A stretch of DNA of 64,000 nt. It comes from an uncultured Haliea sp. (GTDB lineage Bacteria > Pseudomonadota > Gammaproteobacteria > Pseudomonadales > Halieaceae). Positions 4,483 through 58,494 of the stretch are shown here, in pieces (positions within the stretch are counted from its first letter, which is position 1; the number at the start of each line of letters is the position of its first letter). The notes below the pieces were generated by a model. That model ran no database searches, was not told the DNA's origin, and saw only the letters and a list, made by a program, of their open reading frames with translations. The stretch spans positions 1 through 64,000 of the forward strand of contig CAJXTK010000001.1 in NCBI GenBank assembly GCA_913061115.1, given 5' to 3'. Both the position numbers and the translations under genes were made by a program.

Positions 4483-7389
4483 TCACTCCTTGCGCTTGAT
4501 CAGAATTTTTTCGCCCTTGCGATACATCAACATCGTGTTGACCGTACCATCCTCGTCAACGATAAATTCAAGTTTCACGTTCTCCCCGCCGGCGCCAGCC
4601 ATAAAAGTAGTAGCACTTAGCGGTTCCATCAGGCCACCGCCATACATGGGAACTTCAAGATGCAACCCGTCGGATTTTTCGATGACTGTAAATGTCACGA
4701 AACTGATGGAGTAGGCACCCTCAAATGACCCGTAACCGCGATCGTAGGGCACAGACTGCAGTTCAGCCACCGTCCAAGGCAGCATTCGATCGGCACTAGC
4801 CACGCGACTCTCTGCAGCAGTGGTGACGCTGACAGGGTCTGCTTTATTTCCCCAACTGCGCCGCACATACGTCATCAGTCCAGCAAGCGTTTCATCATTC
4901 AGCTCGGACAGATGTCCGTGGGCCGGCATGACGCCATTCCAGATTTCCCCTTTCACTTCCACAGGACCATTCAATCCCTGCAAGATGATCCGAGCCAGCC
5001 ATTCCGGTGGCCCAGTTACCCAGATAGCGCCCACCAAGGACGGAGCCAAGCCGGCGATGCCAGTTCCATCGGCAGAGTGACAAGTACCGCACTGCAAATA
5101 GAAACGCTCTCCAAGTGCCATCCCCTCCAACTGCCCGGGGCTCAATGGCATAATGCCCAGAGCGAGTTCATCGCCGGGCCAAGTAAAAGCCGCCCGGCCC
5201 CTCATACGAGCTTCCCACAATGGGTCCTGCTCACTGATGGAACCGTCAGAGAATATCTCAGGCGACGCCTCCAGAACGGCAGGAACAAAGTCCGTACTGG
5301 CCGCCACGCTCTTCATTCCCTCAAGCATCGCCATCTGTTGCCAGGCGTTGTCATTACTGCGAGATTCCGCCAGAGCCAATAATTCTAGCAGTGCGGGATT
5401 GGCACTTTCGCCCGACGTAATATCACCGCGCAGACTGCGGTATGCTCCGCTGGCAAGTGAGCTCAAGGCGGTTCTTGCGGCTTCAGACACAGCCCCCAGA
5501 TGCTCGGAACCTAGGTACTCACTCAGGAATAACAGCTCTTCTCCTGCCACTGCACGCACGACCGCCTGTCGTATATAGGGACTTTCAAGGTTAGCCGTCA
5601 GCAACGTTACGAGAGAGCGCCGCACACTCGCGTCAGATGCATGATCTCCCATGGCAAAGGCCAGCTGCATTGACAACACGTCAGCAGAATCCGGCGATAG
5701 CTCCTCATACAATGTCACCAGATCAGCAGCAGACAGCAACGACCGTCCAGCACGCAGGGCCTGAATCTGCCGCTGTGTGTCATCCAAGCGCGCAATCTTC
5801 ATGACCAACTTACGCTGCAATTCACCCCTGCCGTGTAACGTCCAGATAGCGTGCAGGGCCGCAACAGTATTATGGCCAGAGGCAATCGCTGCCAAAGCCA
5901 CTGCATGATCGCCGCCGCGACCCAACAATAAGCGCTGTGCCGTGTCACGCACCCAGCCATTGGGGTGGCCCAGCGCGAGAATCAGCTCTGCGTCGCTGGC
6001 GTCGCCGAAATCAGGAAAGTGTCGCGCCGTTTTTCCGCCGGCATGTCGAACACGCCAGATACGCCCCATACCGACAGGTGTCTCCAACTCCCTTTCAAAA
6101 ACCTGCTCCCGCAGTTCGTCGGTCATGTAGTAATCGTCCTGCACGATGCCGCGATACATGTCGATAATGTAGAGCGCACCATCAGGACCATTCATTGCAT
6201 CGACCGGACGGAAGCGTTCGTCTGTTGAACCTAAGAAATCTCGCTTGCCCCATTTATCATCGTCATAAAGACGCTGGGTAGCCTTCAGTGCAATGCCCTC
6301 CTCGCTAATCGCAAACTGAGCAACGACGTTCCCCGCGACTTCCGGCACGAACACATCAGCGTGATATTCCTTTGGGAACTGGTCACCACGATAAGATACA
6401 AGGCCGCTAACCCCGGTGGCCTCGTTGAGACGCCCATCCTCTCGCAAAGTGCCAGGCAGGTAGGCACGATTGACGCCCGGGTTGACGCGCACGGAATAGA
6501 CATTCGCGGGATTCGTTAGATTCACACCCAGTCCCTCGGGGTAAGTCTGCTCGCGCGGCTGCACAATATCTTCAGCCGCAAAAAAATCTGCCTGCAACCA
6601 GGTGGAATTGTGGTTGTACAGCAAGCGGCCAAAGTCATCCTTGGTGATACCCCACTGCCCACGGAAAAAACCTTCGCGCTCTAGCAATTCACCGGCTTCG
6701 ATGCGCACACTACGCGACGATTTAGAATTGTAAAACCAGTTATCCAGCCCCTGCATCAGGCCGTTTTCCATATGCTCTACATTCGCTGTTTCAACGTCAT
6801 CCGCATAACTTCCAATGCTGCGCTTTTTCTCACAGAGGGCCTTGCGGATGGGCAGTTCGCAGAGCCATAGATTAGGCGGCTCGCCAATTAGGATGCCCTC
6901 ATTCACCACTGCCACCGCGCGCGGATTGACCAACCCGCCAAGAAAAATCTCGCTAGTATCCATGCGCCCATCACCATTGGTATCCTCCAACCGCACCACG
7001 CGACCTACCGGTAGATCGCCACCAGCACCATAGGCATCGAGCATATAACTTCGCATCTCGACCACGTAAAGACGGCCGTACTCATCCCAAGCCATCGCCA
7101 CCGGTTCCTCTACCAGCGGCTCTGCAGCGACCAGTTCAACCTCAAAGCCCGGAGCAATACTAAAGGCCGACAGTGACTCTTGCGGTGACAATACTGGCGC
7201 AGGTTTATTGTCCAGCGTTTCATAAAACAGCGGCTCGCTGCCATTTTCCTTCAGCCAAAACCACTCAAAATCGTCGATACGATAATTCTCTCCCAGTTGA
7301 CCTTCCAGCGCGGCGGGCTTTAGAAATACCAGGAAGTAACAACCGGCTCCCACGGCGACTAACAACAACAGAACAATAATTTTTTTCAT
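4483..7389 (-). CDS. PVC-type heme-binding dehydrogenase with C-terminal cytochrome c domain
   Basis: A 968-residue exported protein with an N-terminal membrane anchor or signal (residues 3-23). Residues about 70-440 form a beta-propeller resembling the membrane-bound dehydrogenase domain first described in Planctomycetes and Verrucomicrobia, with repeats such as PVAMAWDEYGRLYVVEM, FGRLLYNHNST and MNGPDGALYIIDMYRG. Residues about 450-700 look like HEAT-type helical repeats. A class I cytochrome c domain follows with heme site CGTCH near residues 766-770, and there is a beta-rich C-terminal tail. It probably oxidises an alcohol or sugar in the periplasm and passes electrons to heme c; the substrate is unknown. 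It follows the SDR gene by 70 nt and is the last gene of the minus-strand run. Such proteins are uncommon in Gammaproteobacteria. Confidence 0.82.
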   Translation of the reverse strand: MKKIIVLLLLVAVGAGCYFLVFLKPAALEGQLGENYRIDDFEWFWLKENGSEPLFYETLDNKPAPVLSPQESLSAFSIAPGFEVELVAAEPLVEEPVAMAWDEYGRLYVVEMRSYMLDAYGAGGDLPVGRVVRLEDTNGDGRMDTSEIFLGGLVNPRAVAVVNEGILIGEPPNLWLCELPIRKALCEKKRSIGSYADDVETANVEHMENGLMQGLDNWFYNSKSSRSVRIEAGELLEREGFFRGQWGITKDDFGRLLYNHNSTWLQADFFAAEDIVQPREQTYPEGLGVNLTNPANVYSVRVNPGVNRAYLPGTLREDGRLNEATGVSGLVSYRGDQFPKEYHADVFVPEVAGNVVAQFAISEEGIALKATQRLYDDDKWGKRDFLGSTDERFRPVDAMNGPDGALYIIDMYRGIVQDDYYMTDELREQVFERELETPVGMGRIWRVRHAGGKTARHFPDFGDASDAELILALGHPNGWVRDTAQRLLLGRGGDHAVALAAIASGHNTVAALHAIWTLHGRGELQRKLVMKIARLDDTQRQIQALRAGRSLLSAADLVTLYEELSPDSADVLSMQLAFAMGDHASDASVRRSLVTLLTANLESPYIRQAVVRAVAGEELLFLSEYLGSEHLGAVSEAARTALSSLASGAYRSLRGDITSGESANPALLELLALAESRSNDNAWQQMAMLEGMKSVAASTDFVPAVLEASPEIFSDGSISEQDPLWEARMRGRAAFTWPGDELALGIMPLSPGQLEGMALGERFYLQCGTCHSADGTGIAGLAPSLVGAIWVTGPPEWLARIILQGLNGPVEVKGEIWNGVMPAHGHLSELNDETLAGLMTYVRRSWGNKADPVSVTTAAESRVASADRMLPWTVAELQSVPYDRGYGSFEGAYSISFVTFTVIEKSDGLHLEVPMYGGGLMEPLSATTFMAGAGGENVKLEFIVDEDGTVNTMLMYRKGEKILIKRKE

Positions 7390-54401: not shown

Positions 54402-54417
54402 CTGTATGTATATACAG
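54402..54417 (+). promoter_or_regulatory. LexA-binding site (SOS box) of imuA
   Basis: CTGTATGTATATACAG is a CTG-N10-CAG box one base from perfect symmetry (ACTGTATGT/ATATACAGT arms). It ends 32 nt before the imuA ATG, where repressor would block transcription start. It is independent of the holA transcript. Confidence 0.9.
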
Positions 54418-54449
54418 TTTTATAGACAGACAACCCCGAGGTGCAGGCT

Positions 54450-55178
54450 ATGAATGAGATGCTGGAACAGATTATCAATCGCAACGACACTTGGCGTGGG
54501 CGCCCCCCCCACTTTCAGGGTCAGAGTATTTCAGCGAATAGCGATTGCAACGGCTCTTCGAGCCTTTCCTCTGGCCATGCAGCACTGGATGCACAATTGC
54601 AGCAGGGCGGCTGGCCTCTGGACGGTACCATTGAGTTGCTAAGCGACGGCTGTGGGCTGGGCGCCATGGGCCTGTTCCTGCCCGCCATGGAGCGCCTTAG
54701 CGACCAGGGCCGCTGGCAAGTATTTATCGCTCCACCCTATATACCCTATGCCCCACTTTTGGCCGGTCGAGGTATCGACACCCAACAGATTTTGATGGTC
54801 CATCCCAAAAATCGTCAGGAGCGTTTATGGGCGACTGAACAAGCTCTACGCAGCACCACCTGCAGCGCTGTATTCAGCTGGCTGGGCGCACAAAACTATA
54901 ACTACAGCGAATTGCGCAAACTACAACTGGCGGCCGCCAGTGGGGATAGCCTGGCCGTACTGTTTCGCCCCAACCAGGCACACCACAACAGCGCTCCTTC
55001 CAGCCTGCGCATGCAAATGCGCGAGTACCGCAAAGTACACATCCTCAAGCAACGTGGCGGCAACCAATCCATCGACGTGGATCTATCCCCCGCAGAAGAT
55101 GAGCCACTGCAACCACAACTATGGGAATTACCGGTCTGGACAGCTAATAGCCAACACAGTCCTGCAATGGGCGTATAA
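54450..55178 (+). CDS. imuA: ImuA, SOS mutagenesis cassette protein
   Basis: A 242-residue RecA/SulA-like protein of the imuA-imuB-dnaE2 SOS cassette. The GHAALDAQLQQGGWPLDGTIELL block, the IAPPYIPYAPLLAGRGID stretch and SAVFSWLG match ImuA; a true Walker A motif is not visible. It supports error-prone translesion synthesis with ImuB. The ATG at 54450 has GAGG 8 nt upstream; a GTG at 54441 is also in frame. A LexA box lies 32 nt upstream. Unlike most cassettes, imuB does not follow directly: an antisense gene intervenes, and imuB has its own LexA box. Confidence 0.87.
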   Translation: MNEMLEQIINRNDTWRGRPPHFQGQSISANSDCNGSSSLSSGHAALDAQLQQGGWPLDGTIELLSDGCGLGAMGLFLPAMERLSDQGRWQVFIAPPYIPYAPLLAGRGIDTQQILMVHPKNRQERLWATEQALRSTTCSAVFSWLGAQNYNYSELRKLQLAAASGDSLAVLFRPNQAHHNSAPSSLRMQMREYRKVHILKQRGGNQSIDVDLSPAEDEPLQPQLWELPVWTANSQHSPAMGV

Positions 55179-55284: not shown

Positions 55285-55590
55285 CTATTTCTCTGCAAGG
55301 AGATTGGAGCGAACCTGGAATTCAATGACTTCATCATTGTAAACCCGAGAAAAGTCTTCCACTTTTGCGACCAAAATTAGGTGTTGCTGAGGGGCCATTA
55401 AGCCACATCCTATGTAGGCCTCCGCATGCAGCAGGTACTTTTCTGCCGCCAACTGCCCCCTGTACATTACTTCATCACTGGCGACTGCGCCATCAGGCAA
55501 CACGGGCAACTCGCCCGGCCTCTTAACAGGACAGTCAGCAGAGGCATTGAATGCCAGACAGATCAGGACAGTCATTAATAAAACTTTCAT
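55285..55590 (-). CDS. Small exported protein of unknown function between imuA and imuB
   Basis: A 101-residue protein with a signal peptide (about residues 1-18, NASA-DC). The mature part has two cysteines and a central acidic stretch, QLAAEKYLLHAEAYIGCGL; I recognise no family. The ATG at 55590 has GGGAGA about 8 nt upstream; the frame extends to 55671. It runs against imuA and away from imuB, so it splits the cassette. A 15-bp palindrome GTAACTTTAAGTAAC sits just upstream at 55608-55622. Confidence 0.66.
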   Translation of the reverse strand: MKVLLMTVLICLAFNASADCPVKRPGELPVLPDGAVASDEVMYRGQLAAEKYLLHAEAYIGCGLMAPQQHLILVAKVEDFSRVYNDEVIEFQVRSNLLAEK

Positions 55591-55843
55591 CAGTAGATCT
55601 CCCGCATGTAACTTTAAGTAACATAACTCAAAGAATATGTTACCACTATCTACCCATCGCAGATCAATCACAACCTCGATCCTGCATATTATTCATTAAA
55701 TATTGTACATAAATAGTTATCTAAAGCAGTGATCCAAAGTTCTAATTCGTGCACCAATTTGTCACCTAAGGTAACAATTAGAGGTACAGAATGTGGCCCA
55801 GACACCACAAAAGTGGTGCTTTATCGCTGCCGGCAGAGAAATA

Positions 55844-55885
55844 GATAGCAATAATACTGTATATATATACAGTATTATTGCTATC
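55844..55885. repeat. 42-bp perfect palindrome centred on a consensus LexA box
   Basis: The 21-base arms GATAGCAATAATACTGTATAT (positions 55844-55864, described here as GATAGCAATAATACT followed by GTATAT) and 55865-55885 pair without a mismatch. The centre, 55857-55872, is CTGTATATATATACAG, the ideal SOS box. The symmetry extends 13 bp beyond the box on each side, much further than LexA needs. The next outward pair, at 55843 and 55886, does not match. Confidence 0.95.
55857..55872 (+). promoter_or_regulatory. LexA-binding site (consensus SOS box) of imuB
   Basis: CTGTATATATATACAG equals the E. coli LexA consensus core. It ends 64 nt before the imuB ATG at 55937. The site also proves that the longer frame start at 55793 is not used. 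Confidence 0.93.
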
Positions 55886-55936
55886 ATAAAAGTGTTGTCT
55901 TTGCCGTTTACAGGCCACTACTCGAGGGAAAAAATT

Positions 55937-57364
55937 ATGAGCCTTTGGCTGTGCCTGCGCTTTGACCAGCTACCTCTGCAATGCCTGAGCCACTGTGAGC
56001 AACAGCCCGTGGCAGTCATGGCCGCACAGCGCGTAATTCGTATCAATGACTGCGCCGCCGCCCTAGGAATACGTCAAGGCATGGGTGCCGCGACGGTACG
56101 GGCACTCGCAGGCGAAGAGGCGATCCGCTTGCTGGAACGAGACAAGCAGGCGGAACACCGCTGCCTGCAGCAACTGTGCTGCTGGGCTTATAGCATCACT
56201 CCTACCCTTTACACCTGGCAATTTGACTGTCTGCAGCTGGAAATCGAGGGCTGCCTAAGTCTGTACCAAGGGCTGGATGCTCTGTTGGCAGAAGTGGTCA
56301 CCGGCATCAGCAGCCGCGGCTATTGCGCACATCACGGACTGGCGCCGACGCCCAAAGCCGCCTGGCTACTGTCCTTTACTCCCAGAGTCACGGCCATGGC
56401 GATACAGCAACCACTGGAACAACGGCTGAGCCCCCTGCCCCTGAATCTCCTGAAAGAATTCACTGCTACCGTGAACTCTCTACGCCGGGCAGGCCTGCAC
56501 ACAGTGGGTGATGTGCTCACGCTGCCACCTGCGGCACTGGGCCGGCGCTGTGGCAAAGCGTTTACCCATTTTCTACAACAGCTTATGGGCCAGCGAGAAG
56601 ACCTGCAGACAGACTACTGCCCCCCCTCGAGCTTCAAAGATGAATATTGGTTTGGCTACGAGGTAAAAACCAACCATGAGCTAACCCCCGCCGTGCAACA
56701 ACTGCTGCAGTCATTGTGTTATTTTCTGCGCAACACCCAACTGCAGACCAGTGAAATTAACTGGCAGCTAATCAGCAGTGATAAAAAACTACAGAATATC
56801 TGTGTGCGCAGTGCCAGCAGCCACAGTGACTGGAAAAACTGGCACCAGCTCACCTGTCTTCGCTTTGAACAACTGAATCTGACCAACAGCGTAGAAGGCC
56901 TAGCCCTGGCGTGTCCGCAACTGCAACCCGGCCAGCAGGAAAGTATCGATCTGTTCAACCCCCACAACCAGCGTGAACCTCTGGCTGCCCTGCTAGACCG
57001 GCTGCGCAACCGACTGGGATTACAGGCCGTTAAAAAGCTCGGTTGTCGGGACGAGCACCTGCCAGAGTTTGCGATGCTGGTCAGCAACGACCATCCTGGG
57101 AATGAACATAGCCCAAGTCCACACTGCGCCCAGCGCCCCTTCTGGTTGATGCCACAACCCGAAGAACTACGCCAACACGGCAAAAATCTGTACTGGAACG
57201 GCGCCCTAAGCATGGTATGTGGACCAGAACGGATTGAGGACAACTGGTGGCAAGAGCCGGTGAGTAGGGATTATTACATCGCGGCAGATAAGGGCGGCCA
57301 ACGCTACTGGGTGTTTCGTGACCGCCTGACCCAGCAATGGTATGTCCACGGGGCTTTTGTCTAA
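55937..57364 (+). CDS. imuB: ImuB, Y-family polymerase-like protein
   Basis: A 475-residue member of the DinB/UmuC-like Y-family of the ImuB branch. The N-terminal SLWLCLRFDQLPLQC, the AAALGIRQGMGAATVRAL block, LQLEIEGCLSLYQGLDALL and the helix-hairpin-helix-like stretch VGDVLTLPPAALGRRCG fit ImuB. The acidic triad of active Y polymerases is not evident, as is usual in this branch, which is thought to act as an adaptor between beta clamp and polymerase. The ATG at 55937 has GAGGG 8 nt upstream. dnaE2 is not downstream: the next gene (57389) is on the opposite strand. Confidence 0.87.
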   Translation: MSLWLCLRFDQLPLQCLSHCEQQPVAVMAAQRVIRINDCAAALGIRQGMGAATVRALAGEEAIRLLERDKQAEHRCLQQLCCWAYSITPTLYTWQFDCLQLEIEGCLSLYQGLDALLAEVVTGISSRGYCAHHGLAPTPKAAWLLSFTPRVTAMAIQQPLEQRLSPLPLNLLKEFTATVNSLRRAGLHTVGDVLTLPPAALGRRCGKAFTHFLQQLMGQREDLQTDYCPPSSFKDEYWFGYEVKTNHELTPAVQQLLQSLCYFLRNTQLQTSEINWQLISSDKKLQNICVRSASSHSDWKNWHQLTCLRFEQLNLTNSVEGLALACPQLQPGQQESIDLFNPHNQREPLAALLDRLRNRLGLQAVKKLGCRDEHLPEFAMLVSNDHPGNEHSPSPHCAQRPFWLMPQPEELRQHGKNLYWNGALSMVCGPERIEDNWWQEPVSRDYYIAADKGGQRYWVFRDRLTQQWYVHGAFV

Positions 57365-57388: not shown

Positions 57389-58411
57389 TCACTCGAACAA
57401 CACCACCTCCTCAAAACGAGGCAGCGTACTAAAGTGTAATTCAGGATTGTCGGCTGCCTTATCGTGCAGAAATAACCGAGTATCTTCCTGCCCCCCGGAA
57501 ATGAAAGCCACTGCCTGGACCGGCCCCCTAAACGGGCCTTCCGCCGGCCCTGTGAGACTGTCAAAATGAATAGGGATAATATGCGTGGGTGCGGTGGCAT
57601 CCACTGTCTCGCGCCAGAACGTCTCGCGGTAATCGGCTGTTTGCGACCCCAAACCACCGACGCCGAGAAAGACAATATCAGCGTCCAGACCCTGCAATGC
57701 GCCCTCCACATAACCCGCACTACCCACTATTAACCAACTTCCCTTGGGGTGACTGACATGCAGGACCCACGCGGTACCCACGCGGTAATCAAACACGCGC
57801 ACCGGTGGCACCAAAGGCACGGTAAGCTCTGGGTTTCCCAGCGCACGCTCGCGAATCGCTGGGTCGGGAAACTCAAAATGTCGGGATTCAATCGGCGTAA
57901 TCACAAACTTCCCCAACTGCACAGGTTCGCGGTCTACCAGCACCTGTATCTGCGACTCGGGCAGCCCCCATCCACGGCCAATATTGGCCGTGGACTCCGA
58001 ACCAAGTAATAACGCGCCAGTGCGCCTGGCAACCTCTGGCGCATCCATAGCGTGATCATAATGAGAGTGCACCGGCAACACCGCCGCCAATTCAACAACA
58101 TGATTGTCCGCCAGACCCCGCTCTATGTTCGACAGATCCGGCGCAATTTTTCCCAATAACAAACGCAGGGGACCAGGGCGACTAAACCACCCATCCGTCA
58201 TCCATTGTGTCTCGCCGTCACTAAACAACAAGGTCGCTGTGCCGCTAAAGCGCACCGTCACCGCATCCTCCGGTATAGGATCGGCACCTAACACTGCCCA
58301 CTCAGGCTCTACCGGTACCGATGTGTAAATATTCAGGGCATAAACTAGGAACAATGCCGAGGACAGAACAACCAACAATAACAGTGCCAGAACGCCACGC
58401 CGCAAACTCAT
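57389..58411 (-). CDS. Membrane-anchored MBL-fold hydrolase
   Basis: A 340-residue protein with an N-terminal signal or anchor (about residues 5-25) and a metallo-beta-lactamase fold. The metal motif HSHYDH (about residues 115-120) and the later histidines in THIIPIHFDSL are present; the strands around TATLLFSDGETQWMTDGW fit the L-ascorbate-6-phosphate lactonase/NAPE-PLD-like branch. It likely hydrolyses a phosphodiester or lactone in the periplasm. The ATG at 58411 has AGAGGA 6 nt upstream; a frame start at 58492 is not supported. It is convergent with imuB (24 bp) and follows the DUF2164 gene (83 nt). Confidence 0.8.
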   Translation of the reverse strand: MSLRRGVLALLLLVVLSSALFLVYALNIYTSVPVEPEWAVLGADPIPEDAVTVRFSGTATLLFSDGETQWMTDGWFSRPGPLRLLLGKIAPDLSNIERGLADNHVVELAAVLPVHSHYDHAMDAPEVARRTGALLLGSESTANIGRGWGLPESQIQVLVDREPVQLGKFVITPIESRHFEFPDPAIRERALGNPELTVPLVPPVRVFDYRVGTAWVLHVSHPKGSWLIVGSAGYVEGALQGLDADIVFLGVGGLGSQTADYRETFWRETVDATAPTHIIPIHFDSLTGPAEGPFRGPVQAVAFISGGQEDTRLFLHDKAADNPELHFSTLPRFEEVVLFE

Positions 58412-58494
58412 AAAAAATCCTCTAATTGATGCATTGAGCGCCAGGTTCGTGCAGCGCAGACACCGCTTCCTCAGCCCGCTGAGCCGGTGCAATG

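Follow-up and report, generated by a model that had tools for sequence, protein, structure and literature searches.

Bacterial quasipalindromes are perfected by template switching, which is stimulated by replication blocks such as DNA-protein crosslinks (PMC6357072). Template switching is reported to be subject to an anti-mutagenic effect of SOS induction, and TLS polymerases have been suggested as candidates (PMC6357072). In yeast, inverted repeats undergo arm homogenisation and parallel events (PMC8604942). The other described systems closest to the locus reported here are the E. coli-type LexA (SOS) box, TACTGTATATATATACAGTA, and the SOS-controlled imuA-imuB-dnaE2 mutasome. Here we report an imuB operator from a 64,000-nucleotide stretch of DNA of an uncultured Haliea sp. 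(the whole stretch is referred to below as the window). Its LexA box has the core and the spacing of the E. coli-type box and likewise lies ahead of an SOS gene, but the operator adds 13 symmetric bp per side, whereas the usual consensus ends at about 20 bp. The locus also shares its gene set and LexA control with the mutasome, but imuB has an operator of its own, apart from imuA and dnaE2, and the arms of that operator are palindromic.

A 42-bp perfect palindrome around the imuB LexA box

Features of the locus, in window coordinates, are as follows.

54402-54417: LexA box of imuA, CTGTATGTATATACAG, an ordinary box
54441-55178, plus strand: imuA (NCBIfam NF033429 ImuA, 206.9 bits against a cut-off of 150), upstream of imuB
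55285-55590, minus strand: gene for a small, probably secreted protein of no known family, with an ATG start, divergent from imuB and lying between imuA and imuB
55844-55885: perfect palindrome, 42 bp, self-reverse-complementary and single-copy
55844-55856: left arm; in most relatives, predicted promoter spacer, preceded by a conserved TGGACA
55857-55872: predicted LexA (SOS) box CTGTATATATATACAG, matching the E. coli-type consensus in full and kept before imuB in relatives at a similar distance
55873-55885, plus strand: right arm, holding most of the putative extended -10 element
55879-55887, plus strand: putative extended -10 element of imuB, TG-C-TATCAT, from a five-species alignment
55937-57364, plus strand: imuB, a Y-family-like TLS protein of 475 aa (Pfam IMS 8.7e-8)

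A preliminary description of the window had claimed a 42-bp perfect palindrome carrying the imuB LexA box, with symmetry running without mismatch for 13 bp past each end of the box, and the letters bear out both statements. The segment at 55844-55885 reads GATAGCAATAATACTGTATATATATACAGTATTATTGCTATC and equals its own reverse complement; the symmetry is broken by the flanking pair A/A, and 51 bp separate the palindrome from the start codon of imuB (55937). The 16-bp centre has the E. coli-type form CTG-N10-CAG with an AT-rich middle. LexA boxes precede imuB in most members of the family, as is usual for sites upstream of SOS genes that are conserved in orthologs, and on sequence grounds 55857-55872 is the predicted LexA operator of imuB. 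The arms, as had also been proposed, are not explained by LexA contacts. As single-stranded DNA the 42-mer folds with -16.5 kcal/mol, compared with -4.3 kcal/mol for the 20-bp core alone.

From the local base composition, the chance of 13 further symmetric pairs is about 2.5e-8 per site. Because the assembly of the window genome is a draft of 285 contigs, an assembly artefact might be suspected, but all 42 bp are identical in an independent species (G005), and similar palindromes occur in many independent assemblies, one of them a 3.7-Mb contig; this recurrence refutes chance or misassembly, to which we give hardly any credence.

Several familiar classes of element were also considered and set aside. 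The palindrome has a single place in its own genome, even with up to 3 mismatches allowed, which rules out a repeated or mobile palindromic element (REP, MITE). No G+C-rich stem with a T run, as in a Rho-independent terminator, was found on the imuB strand, and a terminator scan of the minus strand gave only a weak match, the match count being at chance level. No known RNA family matches at the palindrome, the only RNA-family matches in the window being two tRNAs. Nor is there a general excess of palindromes genome-wide. At 24 bp, TCCACGGCCAATATTGGCCGTGGA (57971-57994) ranks second in length among the perfect palindromes of the window; it falls within the reading frame 57389-58492. Two more inverted repeats stand upstream of the divergent small gene, GTAACATA-N10-TATGTTAC at 55618-55643 and TTGTCACC-TAA-GGTAACAA, with one mismatch, at 55758-55776; both are partly kept in the five closest species and may be operator sites of another regulator.

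Recurrence at LexA boxes of error-prone polymerase genes

The palindrome finding holds more generally than could be known from the window. Among 99 strong LexA boxes of 37 relatives, 17 have perfect arms of at least 8 bp, whereas re-pairing the arms between sites gives an expectation of 0.3, and the distribution of arm lengths across strong boxes is bimodal. When further families of the order were included, extended perfect arms (8-20 bp) were present at 22 of the 105 boxes of TLS genes, namely imuB, imuA, dnaE2 and umuDC, and at 1/97 other SOS boxes (p=2.5e-6), a comparison that treats sites as independent, though the species are related, and in which many gene labels are N-terminal sequences judged by eye. 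Family models confirmed ImuA, DnaE2, UmuC, UmuD, TopB and integrase in chosen examples. With core symmetry matched, the counts were 17/70 for TLS boxes and 1/49 for the others (p=0.0006); with the first two arm pairs matched too, they were 17/55 and 1/14 (p=0.09). Stronger core symmetry accounts for only part of the bias towards TLS genes. Few recN and yebG genes, taken as controls, have LexA boxes in the family, so the per-gene control is thin. An exact-match search across the class yielded four genomes only.

In the one extended case found outside the error-prone polymerase genes, a LexA box ahead of topB, encoding DNA topoisomerase III, has perfect arms of 9 bp (G243, L251:1326-1359). In 400 kb of the relative G004, a single perfect palindrome exceeds a half-length of 10, the maximum in shuffled sequence; it is a 50-bp LexA operator that precedes an integron integrase and then dnaE2. 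The remaining palindromes of those 400 kb are as frequent as in shuffled sequence.

Other observations were made at these loci. The integron-integrase match (NCBIfam TIGR02249, 411 bits) lies directly before dnaE2, behind the 50-bp palindromic operator, at L036:2559-3596 in G004 and on L052 in G017, and similar integrase-like genes with LexA boxes, judged by eye, are found in G011, G015, G023 and G027. At an imuA box of G317 (L254:1340-1375) the arms CTCATG/CATGAG are offset by one base, possibly a palindrome after a small indel. In G001 and G013 (L054:3403-4363; L055:3112-3164 and 5505-5557; L008 upstream of imuB) the left side of the imuB operator is replaced by a sequence containing ACAGTGGGTCC, which resembles the end sequence next to a transposase-like gene in the vicinity; this end sequence is itself similar to a LexA box.

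Arm evolution and promoter geometry in relatives

The imuB operator was compared in about 30 species, the named nearest records being Halioglobus and Haliea MAGs or isolates. G000 and G005 share 26/26 arm bases with the window, compared with about 75% identity in the flanks. In G010 (ImuB identity 96% over the larger fragment) only two arm bases differ from the window, and together they form one new complementary pair. In G012 the pair at arm position 9, where the putative TGN motif has its free N, is swapped from G-C to C-G, and one outer pair is broken; in G006 the symmetry is partly lost. Further relatives (G002, G008, G009, G015, G016 and L067) have perfect imuB arms of 8-12 bp whose sequences differ from those of the window, and still others carry the box alone. 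Across 26 imuB sequences, arm covariation was 0.240 against 0.131 after shuffling, a value reached by 0/500 shuffles; the shuffles keep sequence relatedness in place, and the score counts as support, not proof. Double-sided changes numbered 38, against 19 in shuffled data, and covariation was highest at zero slide, above every slid version. Changes that raise the identity of the arms in complementary pairs are thus found in G010, in G012 and in the covariation.

The preliminary description had proposed checking conservation of the arms in relatives. Close relatives keep them, through identity or paired change, whereas more distant species often lose the arm symmetry and keep the box. The arms in close Halioglobus and Haliea relatives, then, change sequence yet often remain complementary, and do not diverge freely.

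Arms that exceed the need of LexA would have a use if a second dimeric regulator sat on them, to either side of LexA, or if the palindrome served as a symmetric two-way promoter, driving both imuB and the small gene that diverges from it; that small gene does start at 55590. The arm sequences, however, share no motif across lineages, and the second-protein site that had been suggested fits such variation poorly. For a two-way promoter, the symmetry stops inside the -10 hexamer, after TATC, giving TATCAT on one strand and TATCTA on the other, and the imuA palindromes lie in tandem, not divergent, arrangements. On these two grounds we rejected the symmetric divergent promoter, and we consider the pair of proposals as a whole quite improbable.

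The right arm overlaps a motif, TGN-TAT[C/T]AT at 55879-55887, that is kept in all five closest species and is a candidate extended -10 promoter element of imuB, with a predicted start near 55893. Most relatives instead have a conserved TGGACA 27 bp before the LexA box and 17 bp before [AG]ATACT, an arrangement in which the left arm would be the -35/-10 spacer and the start site would fall in or just after the box; in the window clade this hexamer is degraded, G006 excepted. LexA bound to the imuB box would lie over that part of the promoter which precedes the -10 element. Under either promoter arrangement, the SOS mRNA would probably lack the left arm.

This geometry bears on the RNA hairpin in the imuB leader that had been put forward as one role for the arms. 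The sequence could fold, but such a hairpin does not fit, because SOS transcription is predicted to begin beyond the palindrome in the window clade, or within the box in relatives with TGGACA-N17-[AG]ATACT; moreover, G-T pairs are not in excess at stem ends (3/22 breaks). We regard a leader hairpin as very improbable. Fold-back inhibition is known for transposase genes, and a parallel can be drawn in which the arms insulate against read-through: transcripts from upstream would hold both arms and hide the ribosome site in a hairpin, while the SOS transcript, starting in or beyond the right arm, would escape. The right arm indeed reaches or covers a ribosome site or start codon at imuA of G021, at the integrase-dnaE2 loci of G004 and G017, and at dnaE2 of G028 and G277. 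At imuB of the window, by contrast, about 50 nt lie between the end of the arm and the start codon, and little read-through would be expected there because the upstream gene is divergent in the closest species. Insulation thus seems unlikely.

Templated mutation and selected structure as proposed explanations

In our judgement, with a probability of roughly 0.55, the flanks of the imuB LexA operator and promoter have been made and kept palindromic by templated mutation, a form of concerted evolution. The LexA box is a near-perfect inverted repeat, at which a stalled nascent strand may fold back or switch strands; primed at the half-site complementary to it, such a strand could then be extended with one arm as the template for the other, which would be a quasipalindrome, or template-switch, mutation. 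Arms produced in this way would be symmetric up to a sharp edge, lineage-specific in sequence, and apt to take up later mutations in pairs. LexA would contact the centre only, and the arms may have no further function. In the window clade the right arm would be constrained because it apparently holds the extended -10 element of imuB (TGN-TATCAT), and the left arm would be mainly its mirror copy.

The edges of the palindromes are sharp, as those of a template-switch product should be: once the first pair is broken, symmetry over the next eight positions is at chance (32/162 positions, 0.20). Asymmetric cores inside perfect arms are common (imuA of G005 and G008, imuB of G008), which is what copying that starts at a primed half-site and proceeds outward would produce. 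Some arms mirror a functional sequence present on one side, such as the dnaE2 start codon (G277) or ribosome-site-like bases (G004, G021). Overwriting of an arm at imuA of G005 and G008 is suggestive, the direction not being fixable for G005, where relatives keep partial symmetry; for the same reason we no longer take the right arm at imuA of G005 to be the product of one clean overwriting event.

Other observations do not follow from templated mutation. Among non-LexA centres of the same genomes, only 2/463 with cores at least 7/8 symmetric have arms of at least 8 bp, both terminator-like, and 0/3915 with 6/8 symmetric cores do, an imperfect control in that such centres, unlike operators, need not be old or conserved. 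Rarity at ordinary quasipalindromes counts against a purely general templated process, and the bias towards TLS genes is not predicted by templated mutation. The reported effect of SOS induction on template switching, with TLS polymerases as suggested candidates (PMC6357072), is an attractive, if speculative, link to that bias.

The main rival is a selected structural role, in which selection keeps the arms complementary because a cruciform or single-stranded DNA hairpin formed there changes how LexA occupies the operator or how the promoter opens; the mutagenic polymerase genes would then be controlled more tightly, or in a way that depends on supercoiling. Several results point that way: palindromes recur at imuB, imuA, dnaE2 and umuDC across several families of the order, arms covary in imuB orthologs, close species conserve arms more than flanks, and the full palindrome folds far more stably than the core. 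Against it, most orthologous boxes of the same genes are armless (83/105 TLS boxes), so that such a structure is not required; the imuA and dnaE2 boxes of the window genome itself lack extended arms; and the symmetry ends abruptly, unlike that of a tolerant stem. We consider a selected cruciform or hairpin possible but doubtful. The wider proposition that operators of error-prone polymerase genes (imuB, imuA, dnaE2, umuDC) in this order are selected as long perfect palindromes, with a cruciform or hairpin as a second, structure-based control of SOS mutagenesis, is a shade more doubtful still.

If templated mutation is the true cause, repressor operators are natural hotspots of this process, and function-free arms that covary caution against taking covariation as proof of structure. 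If selection is, SOS mutagenesis is controlled in part through a structural layer that is absent from the literature searched. Orthologous operators occur naturally in palindromic and non-palindromic form, and this set allows a test between mutation and selection.

We found no report of templated arm perfection at LexA operators in the searched literature. The nearest parallels are the template-switch hotspots at quasipalindromes of E. coli (PMC6357072) and yeast (PMC8604942), where arms are likewise perfected from an imperfect repeat, with paired changes and parallel recurrence. In contrast to those hotspots, the process proposed here is deduced from a comparison of species, and would act at repressor operators and over long times.
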